A stretch of DNA of 64,000 nt. Source: Yonghaparkia sp. Root332. Its GTDB lineage: Bacteria; Actinomycetota; Actinomycetes; Actinomycetales; Microbacteriaceae. This document shows positions 24,553 through 27,874 of this stretch, in pieces (within the stretch, counting starts at the first letter, position 1; the number at the start of each line of letters is the position of its first letter). Made by a program: the position numbers and the translations under genes. The notes under the pieces were generated by a model. It was not told the origin of the DNA. It saw only the letters and a program-made list of their open reading frames with translations, and ran no database searches. The DNA lies in contig NZ_LMCX01000002.1 in the NCBI RefSeq assembly GCF_001425665.1, positions 868,001-932,000 of the forward strand, written 5' to 3'.

Positions 24553-25650
24553 TTACTGGCTCACCCATTCGAGGTAGAAGAGGCCGACTCCGACCGCGAC
24601 GAAGAGACCGGCGATGAGCCAGAAGCGCACGACGACGGTGACCTCGGCCCAGCCCTTGAGCTCGAAGTGGTGGTGCAGCGGGCTCATGAGGAAGATGCGC
24701 TTGCCCTTGGTGAGCTTGAAGTAGACCCGCTGAACGATGACCGAGCCCGTGACGATCAGGAACAGGCCGCCGATGAGGACGAGCAGGAGCTCGGTGCGCG
24801 TCACGATCGCGAGGCCGGCGATCGCGCCGCCGATCCCGAGCGACCCGGTGTCGCCCATGAACACCTGCGCGGGCGAGGTGTTCCACCAGAGGAAGCCGAT
24901 GAGCGACGCGGCGATCGCGGCCGAGACGATCGCGATGTCGAGAGAGTCGGCGCGCACCTCGTAGCACTTGTAGGCGAGCTCGGGGTCGAGGTTGGGGTTG
25001 AAGCAGTTCTGGTTGAACTGCCAGAACGCGATGATGATGTACGACGCCACTGCGAGGATCGCCGAGCCGGTCGCGAGGCCATCGAGCCCGTCCGCGACGT
25101 TCACGGCGTTCGAGGTGCTCACGACGATGAGGTTGATCCACAGCACGAAGAGGACGATGCCGATCGCCCCGAGCGCGGCGAAATCGAGCCACGGGATGTC
25201 GCGGACTCCGGAGACCATCGTCGACGCGGCCGTCTGCCCGTCGGCGTCCGGGTACGAGATCGCGAGGATCGCGAAGCCGGAGGCGACGACGACCTGCCCG
25301 GCGACCTTCGCCCAGCCCGTCAGCCCGAGGCTGCGCTGATTGCGCACCTTCATGAAGTCGTCGATGAATCCGACGAGCCCGAGGCCCACCATGAGCAGCA
25401 GGACGAGCATCGCGCTCTGCGTGGGCGCCGTCTGATCGACGAGGTGGCCGAAGAAGTACCCGAGCACCGAGCCGAAGATGACGATGATGCCGCCCATCGT
25501 GGGCGTGCCGCGCTTGGTGTGGTGCGTCTGCGGACCGTCGTCGCGGATGAACTGGCCCCACTCCAGGCGCCGGAAGAGGCGGATGAACAGCGGCGTCAGC
25601 AGGAGGGTGAAGGCCAGCGAGAAGGCCCCCGACAGGAGCAGGGCTCTCAT
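24553..25650 (-). CDS. mraY: Phospho-MurNAc-pentapeptide transferase MraY
   Basis: Makes lipid I by moving phospho-MurNAc-pentapeptide to undecaprenyl phosphate. The 365-residue protein has about ten membrane helices and the family motifs GTPTMGG, the catalytic Asp pair in [23 protein letters not shown], the Mg-binding [13 protein letters not shown], and [15 protein letters not shown]. The ATG overlaps the stop of the upstream murF-like gene by ATGA (25647-25650). Confidence 0.98.
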
Positions 25651-26297
25651 GCGGTCTCCTCCGTCAGGCGGGCGATCAGGGTGGCGAGCGGGGTGACTCC
25701 GGCGGCGCTCACGAGCACCGCGTCGCCCGGCGCGAGCCGGGCTCGGAGTTCATCGTAGGCCGCGTCGACGTCGTCGACGAGGAGCGACTCCCCGTCCCAC
25801 GAGCCCTCGAGCCCGGCGGCGGTGCTCGTGTGGCGCGCGCCGTGGCCGACGACGATGAGCTGGCCGATGTCGAGGCGCACGACGAGCCGTCCGAGCTGGT
25901 CGTGGTCCTCGAACCAGTCGGCCTGCTCGCTCACGAGCTCGCCCACGACGGCGAACGAGCGGGCGACGCCGCGCGTGGCGTCGGCGAGCACCTTGAGCGA
26001 GCGCCTCACCTCCGTCGCGGTCGTCGCCCGCGTGTCGTCGATGATCGTGATGCCGTCGGAGGTGCGGGTGCGGCGGCATCGCCCGGGGATCTCCCCGACG
26101 CCCTCCCCCGCCCTCGCGGCCTCCTCGAGCGTCGCGCCCGCCTCGAGCGCGGCGCGGACCGCCTCGACTGCCGCGTCGACCGCGGCGTCGCCGAGCGCAT
26201 CGAGACGCATGAGGGTCGAGCCCTGAGCGCCGCGGATCGTCACGACCGCGCCGTCGAGCCGGTGCTCGACGTCGTCGACCACGAGCGCGGCGGTCAT
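25647..26297 (-). CDS. Truncated MurF-like protein: C-terminal Mur ligase domain without P-loop
   Basis: Occupies the murF position but encodes only 216 residues; MurF is usually about 450-500. Residues 1-70 resemble the end of the Mur central domain (an [23 protein letters not shown] helix region, then PGRC). Residues 80-216 resemble the C-terminal domain: [55 protein letters not shown]. The UDP-substrate domain and the GTxGKT(T/S) ATP loop are absent. The usual DAYNANPDS segment reads [10 protein letters not shown] (87-96), and the KGSR motif is replaced by VSAAG. Both junctions are clean ATGA overlaps, with murE at 26294-26297 and with mraY at 25647-25650. The upstream space is entirely murE, so no 5' part can be hidden. 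It is not a conventional D-Ala-D-Ala ligase; its function is unknown. Confidence 0.8.
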
Positions 26298-27874
26298 CGC
26301 GTCGGCCAGCCGGCCTCGCGGAGGGCGGCGCGCGCCTCCTCGCGGGCGGAGTACTCGGTCCGCACCCCGCGGATGTCGCGGTAGTCCTGGTGCCCGGGCC
26401 CCGCCCACAGGATGGAGTCGCCCTCCTCCGCGAGGCCGACCGCGACGCGGATCGCCGCCTCGGGCGGGCTCACCTCGTGGATCTCAGGCTTATTGGTCGC
26501 GAGCGCGGCGCCCTCGATCAGGGTGGCGCGGATGGACGCCGGGTCCTCGAAGCGCGGGTGGTGGTCGGTGATGACGAGCACGTCGCAGCCCTCGGCGGCG
26601 ACGCGCGCCATCTCGTGCCGCTTGGTGGCGTCGCGGTCGCCATCGGCGCCGAAGACCATGATCGTTCGGCCGGTCGTGAAGCTGCGCACGGCGCCGAGCG
26701 TCTGCTCGAACGCGTCGGCGCTGTGGCCGAAGTCGACGTAGACGCTCGGGCCGCGATCTCCTGAGACGCGCTCGGTGCGCCCGGGGAGGTACGCGTCGAT
26801 GCCGGTCTCGCCGAGCGCCTGCCCGATGACGGCGAGGTCGAAGCCCGCCTCGACCATCATGACGAGCGCGAGCCCGGCGTTGGCGGCCATGTGCCACCCG
26901 ATGAGCGGGACGCGCGTGGTGAGCGAGCGGCCGTCGGGGCCGGTCAGACGGAAGCCCGTGAACGCCGGCTCCTCCTCCGTGAGCTCGACGCGCCACTCGG
27001 CGTCGACCCCGGGCCGGGCCGAGATCGTGGTGACGGGGATGCGCGCCGACTCCACGACCCGCTCGCCGTAGGGCGAGTCGAGCGAGACGACGCCGCGCTT
27101 CGCGCGATCGGGCTGGAAGAGCGGGAGCTTCGCCTGGAAGTACTCCTCCATGTCCGCGTAGTCGTCGAGGTGGTCGTGGCTGAGGTTGGTGAAGCCCGCG
27201 ACGTCGAAGACGATGCCGTCCACGCGGTGCCGGCTGAGGGCCTGCGCGCTGACCTCGACGGCGACGGCGCGGACCCCGGCCTCGCGCATGCGCGCCAGGA
27301 GCGCGTGCATCTCGCTCGCCTCGGGCGTCGTGAGGCGGCTCACGACGGTCAGCTCGCCGATCTTGCGCTCGGCGGTCGACGAGAGCCCCGTGACGAGATC
27401 GAGCTGACGGAGGATCCCGTCGAGCAGGTAGGCGGTCGAGGTCTTCCCGTTCGTGCCGGTCACGCCGAAGAGCAGCGGCGGCTCCTCGCGGGTCCGGTAC
27501 ACCCACGCCGCGAGCTCTCCGAGCGCGGCTCGCGGGTCGTCGACGACGAGGACGGGCACCTCGAGCCCCGACGCGAGCTCAGCCCCCGCGGCATCCGTCA
27601 GGATCGCGACGGCGCCCGCCTCGACGGCAGCCGGCGCGAACTCGGCCCCGTGGCGGTGCTGGCCGCGGATGCCGACGTACAGGTCGCCGGGCTGCAGGTC
27701 GCTCGTCGCGAGCGTGATCCCCATGACCTCGACGCCGTCGGTGCGGCCGTGCGCGACCTCGATGCCGAACTCCTCCACGAGTCCGCCGAGGGGACGAGCG
27801 GAGGGGTGCTCGGGCCGCAGGACGGGGGGGATGCGACCGGACAACACGACCTCTTTCTCGACCGGACCTACCAC
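26294..27874 (-). CDS. murE: UDP-MurNAc-tripeptide synthetase MurE, non-DAP type
   Basis: Adds the third stem-peptide residue. The 526-residue frame has the N-terminal substrate domain, the P-loop GVTGTNGKTSTAYL, the SAQALSRHRVDG and NLSHDHLDDYADMEEY regions with the lysine in FQAKLPLF, and a full C-terminal domain. Where meso-DAP enzymes have DNPR and GKGHE, this protein has HHPR (residues 438-441) and GPGHQ (492-496). That argues for a diamine or other residue such as Lys, Orn, Dab or homoserine, as in Microbacteriaceae type B walls. The start is uncertain: GTG 27874 overlaps ftsI, while GTG 27847 and TTG 27844 lie just downstream of AGAGG. Confidence 0.95.
   Translation of the reverse strand: MVGPVEKEVVLSGRIPPVLRPEHPSARPLGGLVEEFGIEVAHGRTDGVEVMGITLATSDLQPGDLYVGIRGQHRHGAEFAPAAVEAGAVAILTDAAGAELASGLEVPVLVVDDPRAALGELAAWVYRTREEPPLLFGVTGTNGKTSTAYLLDGILRQLDLVTGLSSTAERKIGELTVVSRLTTPEASEMHALLARMREAGVRAVAVEVSAQALSRHRVDGIVFDVAGFTNLSHDHLDDYADMEEYFQAKLPLFQPDRAKRGVVSLDSPYGERVVESARIPVTTISARPGVDAEWRVELTEEEPAFTGFRLTGPDGRSLTTRVPLIGWHMAANAGLALVMMVEAGFDLAVIGQALGETGIDAYLPGRTERVSGDRGPSVYVDFGHSADAFEQTLGAVRSFTTGRTIMVFGADGDRDATKRHEMARVAAEGCDVLVITDHHPRFEDPASIRATLIEGAALATNKPEIHEVSPPEAAIRVAVGLAEEGDSILWAGPGHQDYRDIRGVRTEYSAREEARAALREAGWPTR

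Follow-up and report, generated by a model that had tools for sequence, protein, structure and literature searches.

A conserved, catalytically dead MurF stub between murE and mraY in Microbacteriaceae, and a membrane cassette that probably took over its reaction

Introduction

Which enzyme adds D-Ala-D-Ala in a bacterium whose murF slot, between murE and mraY, holds a gene too short for MurF, and why has that short gene been kept? MurF is regarded as an essential enzyme and is a studied antibacterial target, and whole lineages appear to lack its textbook form. The question arises in the window analysed here, a stretch of 64,000 nucleotides from Yonghaparkia sp. Root332 (Microbacteriaceae), in which an initial annotation had placed a domain-truncated Mur ligase in the murF slot and had taken it for a maintained gene rather than a decaying one, possibly one that scaffolds or regulates MurE or MraY. 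A search of open-licence papers found no description of a membrane MurF or of a MurF stub.

Results

The murF slot encodes the C-terminal domain of MurF

At the locus itself, the initial annotation proved accurate. The frame opens with an ATG, is intact over 216 aa and overlaps both neighbours (Table 1), and it encodes only the C-terminal part of MurF. Mur_ligase_C (PF02875) was the sole Pfam domain above cut-off (8.7e-11, residues 72-200), and the MurF profile TIGR01143 matched over positions 220-414 of 418 only (59.7 bits; cut-off, 288.6). The motif losses were as described (no P-loop; DAYNANP to [14 protein letters not shown] to VSAAG), and neither a P-loop nor DxYNxxP was present when both were looked for in the 216-aa ORF. 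The stub thus shares with MurF the Mur_ligase_C fold and the dcw position between murE and mraY, but differs in lacking the ATP and substrate domains and the catalytic motifs: the N-terminal UDP-binding domain and the central ATPase domain with its P-loop are absent, as are DxYNxxP and GEMxELG of the C-terminal domain. An AlphaFold2 model built from 38 relatives reached a mean pLDDT of 95.2 and a pTM of 0.90, and the best Foldseek matches of the predicted fold were MurF structures, which suggests a folded domain rather than random sequence.

Table 1. Positions of the slot gene, its neighbours and its motifs in the window, and of the cassette Ddl in locus L014.
Feature	Position	Strand	Remarks
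murF-slot ORF, 216 aa	25647..26297	minus	MurF central-domain tail and C-terminal domain; catalytically dead MurF stub
murE	26294..27874	minus	upstream neighbour; 4-base overlap with stub
mraY	24553..25650	minus	downstream neighbour; 4-base overlap with stub
EGSWDGES codons (residues 164-171)	25785..25808	minus	E-G-S-W-x-G-E-S in 42/42 Microbacteriaceae slot proteins compared
[10 protein letters not shown] (residues 87-96)	26010..26039	minus	canonical MurF: DAYNASPDS; key N lost in 42/42
VSAAG (residues 196-200)	25698..25712	minus	canonical family MurF: VKSS at same place
cassette Ddl (P0003)	L014:9964-11121	plus	PF01820 4.1e-17, PF07478 2.6e-17

A homologue of the slot protein was found in all 26 genomes of the genus at E<=1e-5, far more than chance would produce. 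The matches in G024 and G025 are cut off by a contig end, and both genomes were left out of the slot comparison below; the slot protein of G017 is shorter, at 151 aa. A MurF over the TIGR01143 cut-off was found in 0/26 genus genomes and, in the same search, in 34/34 genomes from outside the genus. An assembly or sequencing artefact that deleted most of murF is therefore extremely improbable, since the short form is carried by the entire genus set and the source genome (2.63 Mb) is 99.99% complete in 2 contigs. Neither of the circumstances that the initial annotation had named as fatal to a short murF applies: there is no sequencing error, and no genome of the same genus has a MurF over the cut-off.

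A membrane-embedded MurF-like ligase lies in a cassette with a divergent Ddl

If the slot protein is dead, then either a second, complete MurF should exist elsewhere or D-Ala-D-Ala addition should be done differently, as the initial annotation had put it. Both alternatives turned out to be partly true. A MurF-like ligase does lie elsewhere, but it is not a normal full MurF; searches of the source genome with TIGR01143 and PF08245 found none of that kind. The best MurF match is instead a membrane-embedded protein of 530 aa (180 bits against the cut-off of 288.6; E 3.8e-53), encoded beside a divergent Ddl about 750 kb from the slot on the same contig. Its match to TIGR01143 begins at profile position 62, and its first ~180 residues are predicted to form helices (7-33, 53-76, 81-95, 113-137 and 149-182) that stand where MurF has the UDP-binding domain.

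The remainder of this protein (P0002) resembles MurF closely. PF08245 and PF02875, the Mur central and C-terminal domains, were above the Pfam cut-off, and across 24 aligned membrane ligases the P-loop TGSYGKTSTK, FNN, K287 (which we take to be the catalytic lysine), DDxYNxNP and ENDLPDHY were invariant apart from the x positions. The P-loop, the lysine and DxYNxNP of MurF are thus present, whereas the N-terminal UDP-binding domain is absent, the score falls below the curated value and the protein ends in ENDLPDHY. The predicted structure (mean pLDDT 86.4) had MurF 4qf5 as its top Foldseek match, and its best solved relatives are MurFs. On these features, the protein appears to be a functional MurF-type ligase anchored in the membrane.

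Genomes of family f26 (L278, L279, L283, L284, L288, L291 and L293) have a membrane MurF of another type, with HVFQLEGYKR/HVYQLESYK-like motifs in the N-terminal part as against W-L-R-V-A-Q-R-E-H-Y in the Microbacteriaceae type.

The ligase gene is the middle member of a cassette that opens with an alpha/beta hydrolase gene and closes with that of the divergent Ddl. This cassette lies outside the window (G000:C2 at about 137.6-141.1 kb, L014 7582-11121), presumably with gpsA upstream and thiL downstream. The hydrolase belongs to PF12697, and a G[HW]SxGG nucleophile motif occurs in 68 of 74 hydrolase matches. The Ddl carries both Ddl domains, Dala_Dala_lig_N and _C, but scores under all curated cut-offs shown (TIGR01205, 157.6 bits against 245.65), so that its candidate product, D-Ala-D-Ala, is uncertain. 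It is 29% identical to the canonical family Ddl of the G158 murF-alr-ddl cluster and belongs to a distinct divergent group.

Scanning with the membrane-ligase alignment gave at least 80 loci, most of them from MAGs. Titles among the loci listed include Microbacteriaceae, Pontimonas, Nocardioides, Acidimicrobiia and Actinomarina, and also Acidobacteria, Bacteroidales, Tissierellia, Poribacteria and Chloroflexi. Among 80 loci listed, 74 have the hydrolase immediately upstream of the ligase, 67 have the Ddl immediately downstream and 66 have both; where there was room on either side (68 listed loci), both flank the ligase in 62. We searched 49 membrane-ligase genomes from the loci listed for MurF. 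The membrane form was the only one detected in 42 at E<=1e-35 (seven of these are Microbacteriaceae by title, and six of the seven have the same coordinates as, and hence are, G010, G017, G020, G151, G208 and G276). A MurF over the cut-off was present in two (G293, G325), a full-length match below the cut-off in four of Bacteroidales type (G327, G329, G330, G333) and a partial match in one (G331). Several Bacteroidales genomes and one Tissierellia genome have the membrane ligase alongside another MurF. In 23 of the 30 mraY loci read from other membrane-ligase genomes, murE and mraY adjoin directly, without a stub.

Cassette and MurF largely exclude one another in Microbacteriaceae

Within the genus, the membrane ligase was found at E<=1e-30 in 24 of 26 genomes; the two without a match, G011 and G025, are each 71% complete. 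Across the family, 23 of 249 genomes, from seven genera, carry it at full length. All but one of these carriers (22/23; the exception is G158) are without a MurF over the cut-off, which was present in each of the 16 non-carriers tested. The rule holds even inside g64 and g105, genera that contain both carriers and non-carriers. The cassette Ddl was found at E<=1e-20 in 6/6 carriers and 0/16 non-carriers, which suggests that Ddl, too, is replaced by the cassette.

In a FastTree phylogeny of partial MurE and MraY from 61 taxa, carriers fall into six groups: Pontimonas-type g52; g101; G193 inside g105; g59; G161 with G265, adjoining the non-carrier G216 (support 0.998); and g89 with the source genus. 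The exact placement of G193 has a support of 0.716 only. The family's membrane ligases group in a single clade (support 0.988), whose branching broadly follows the murE+mraY tree. The simplest story is an early acquisition of the cassette, a period with both enzymes and then the lineage-specific loss of one or the other; alternatively, the cassette may have been transferred within the family, or non-carriers may have regained MurF.

Two observations concern neighbouring genes. The murE genes of G023 and G007 (L049, L050) differ from that of G000 with dN of 0.255 and 0.300, against 0.029 and 0.012 for mraY, as if murE had been exchanged or its specificity had changed. In G012:C1, at about 101-115 kb, Mur ligase matches of equal score lie on both strands (101325/114268; 105288/110533), and these mirror matches in the dcw region suggest an inverted duplication or an assembly fault.

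The stub loses the catalytic residues and keeps one loop

We compared 42 stubs with 16 canonical slot MurFs of the family, after dropping L070 as a duplicate of L243. The slots of carriers are never empty: they encode 141-337 aa, compared with 467-472 aa in two canonical slots measured. The longest stubs (G085, g101) retain a decayed P-loop region, and the shortest consist of the last ~140 residues only.

At least 15 of the 16 family MurFs agree at 61 C-domain positions, and 12 of these positions are kept in all 42 stubs. The catalytic-motif residues N343 and M373 occur in no stub, and Y342, E375 and L376 in one each. E416, G417, S418, W419, G421 and E422 of the motif EGSWxGES, in contrast, are among the 12 kept in 42/42; S423 is likewise kept in all stubs and is present in 14/16 canonical family MurFs. 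By these counts, the stubs have lost the residues characteristic of the enzyme, while a loop that is not universal among MurFs has become fixed. Some of the 42 proteins that keep the motif are only 25-31% identical overall to the source slot protein. A nucleotide element beneath EGSWxGES was considered and is disfavoured, because synonymous codons inside the motif vary, which favours constraint on the protein.

EGSW was found in 15/16 slot MurFs of the family and in 11/19 MurFs from other families of the order, counts that treat the off-locus MurF of G158 apart from slot MurFs. The 11/19, together with 17/26 near G295 (see below), indicate that not every MurF requires it. G158 has both versions: its extra MurF has intact catalytic motifs and SEWTGHT instead of the EGSW motif, and its dcw stub has EGSWDGES. 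The gene of the extra MurF lies outside the dcw cluster, in a second set with alr and a canonical Ddl (L231, G158:C1:1903500-1913500).

For the stub, dN/dS was 0.09-0.45 (18 pairs), and within it 0-0.36 for the C-core and 0.15-0.67 for the N-part (17 pairs); the C-core was the less constrained of the two in 2 of the 17 comparable pairs (G001-G003, G011-G015). Values for mraY were 0.01-0.11 and for murE mostly 0.04-0.15 (14 pairs). The stub thus changes more quickly than mraY and, in most cases, more quickly than murE; it is constrained, but less so than both enzymes. Neither the loss of frame nor the loss of constraint that marks a pseudogene was found, the frame being uninterrupted in each of the 42 slots that were compared. 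The purifying selection, together with the invariant motif, which is not a catalytic one, bears out the view that this is a maintained gene rather than one in decay.

Stubs in a second lineage and a survey of the phylum

How far the short form extends had been left for checking: it reaches beyond the genus, at differing lengths, to the six Microbacteriaceae carrier groups and to a second lineage. In 41 genomes (G295 and relatives; record titled 'Frankiales bacterium'), we found five stubs with EGSWGxES, all in Frankiales-like MAGs: G295 (EGSWGEES), G727 (EGSWGSES), G729 (EGSWGAES), G730 (EGSWGQES) and G732 (EGSWGEES). Their slots, 349-373 bases long, encode the C-terminal ~115-125 residues of MurF. 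In G295, G727 and G732 we also read the membrane ligase, and G729 and G730 gave weak matches resembling it. Relatives of G295 with longer MurF frames provided 28 loci, 26 of them readable, and EGSW occurs together with an intact DxYNANP in 17 of these 26. By sequence comparison, the second lineage appears to be an independent case of stub retention.

In a survey of the phylum, 348 of 396 genomes had a MurF over the cut-off; of the 48 that fell under it, 44 had a weaker match and 4 had no match at E<=1e-40. Among 20 loci read from genomes under the cut-off, some hold a divergent slot MurF with intact motifs (e.g. G354, G474, G685) and others the membrane form (e.g. G468, G549). We therefore did not accept a low TIGR01143 score as sufficient evidence of the membrane form, and the survey gives no frequency for that form, since divergent but intact slot MurFs also score low. 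No further stub was identified in the 20 loci read. An alignment of the stub family (A2; 38 rows from the 42-protein family) had matches in all 60 genomes against which it was run, mostly membrane ligases, intact MurFs and other Mur ligases. Partial matches in G380, G476 and G361 extend to the end of the locus or contig, and G471 (order-level, under the cut-off) gave weak matches only. In a Modestobacter MAG (G303, L256), ~200 bases separate murE from mraY and contain a short ORF without EGSW; this slot is possibly further eroded.

Discussion

We consider it likely, judging from sequence comparisons, that a membrane cassette took over D-Ala-D-Ala addition and that the stub preserves a non-catalytic function of the MurF C-terminal domain. 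The ligation step would have moved from the dcw MurF to the cassette, which we infer performs the MurF reaction, and the slot protein would be what remained of the old MurF after the UDP domain, the P-loop, DxYNxxP and GEMxELG were lost, kept as a folded domain for a second function centred on EGSWxGES. Docking onto another component of the cytoplasmic Mur complex (MurE, MraY or MurG) is our best guess at this function. The guess is a natural one because a MurE-MurF fusion in Bordetella binds MurG (PMC6420597). That case is a model for stub docking, in that Mur ligases can act in complex, although the Bordetella MurF is a complete enzyme and the stub would be a dead domain only. Whatever the second function, it would be limited to certain lineages, since most other membrane-ligase mraY loci read (23/30) have no stub.

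The three remaining readings each account for part of these data. Slow decay of the slot gene as a pseudogene, its frame held open only for translational coupling of murE, stub and mraY, would fit the varying slot length among groups (141-337 aa), the dN/dS above that of mraY and the overlap of the ORF with both neighbours in nearly every case. We regard it as quite improbable: coupling needs a frame and not an invariant peptide, yet seven motif residues persist in 42/42 proteins despite overall identities to the source protein as low as 25-31%. Many other genomes with the membrane ligase, moreover, join murE to mraY directly, and stubs persist in genomes of 1.2-1.8 Mb. If instead the stub worked with the membrane MurF, as a subunit or activator that provides the function of a C-terminal domain in trans, then the joint occurrence of the two in six groups and in the second lineage would be explained. 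This is unlikely, because the membrane ligase has a C-terminal domain of its own and, in most of the other lineages that were read, occurs without a stub; canonical MurFs of family genomes that have no membrane ligase conserve EGSW as well.

The other doubt concerns the cassette. Microbacteriaceae have an unusual peptidoglycan, and the membrane ligase might do another job there, such as forming a bridge or modifying a lipid-linked precursor, with D-Ala-D-Ala added by an undetected enzyme or never. The missing UDP-binding domain, the divergence of the Ddl partner and the presence of a further MurF beside the membrane ligase in some Bacteroidales and a Tissierellia genome are all compatible with such a role. 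We nevertheless find it rather unlikely, given the near-perfect exchange with MurF (missing in 22/23 carriers vs 0/16 non-carriers), the invariant MurF-type motifs, the genetic linkage to a Ddl-family gene and the solved MurF structures as best relatives.

Returning to takeover by the cassette with retention of the stub, the membrane ligase may work on a lipid-linked tripeptide, as it lacks a UDP-binding domain and has a membrane domain. Can the last cytoplasmic precursor step, then, occur on a lipid-linked intermediate when the ligase has a Ddl of its own? GatD/MurT acts on lipid II and so offers, by analogy, a precedent for a Mur ligase relative acting on a lipid-linked precursor. Like MurT (PMC6113224), the membrane ligase is a Mur-ligase relative that would serve a late precursor step. 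It differs in having standard PF08245 and PF02875, with no MurT-specific C-terminal domain in the Pfam scan, and in having a hydrolase and a Ddl, rather than a GatD-like protein, as cassette partners.

More tentatively, and with the odds somewhat against it, MurF in actinobacteria could have two separable jobs: ligation, which can be transferred to a membrane cassette acting on the lipid-linked tripeptide after MraY, and a job of the EGSWxxES loop, which cannot. Since the loop's job could not be handed over, the stub would survive each displacement of MurF in these lineages. Recurrent displacement is in effect a natural dissection, which removes the enzyme and exposes the residues kept for another reason, and a hidden function of MurF becomes testable through one small gene.

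A Mur-ligase fold kept for structural reasons has a precedent: the Foldseek listings for the stub and the membrane ligase include chain Q of the plastid-encoded RNA polymerase (8r6s, 9epc), presumably a MurE-like protein without a ligase role, although its host, complex and history are unrelated to those of the stub. On the side of the cassette, the nearest parallel is with actinobacterial van clusters, which contain murF-like genes (PMC8698665) and, like the cassette, place them off the dcw cluster and near Ddl-family genes. The cassette differs in being without vanHAX genes, and, while that paper reports no van-like genes for Acidimicrobiales and Actinomarinales, the cassette occurs in both groups.
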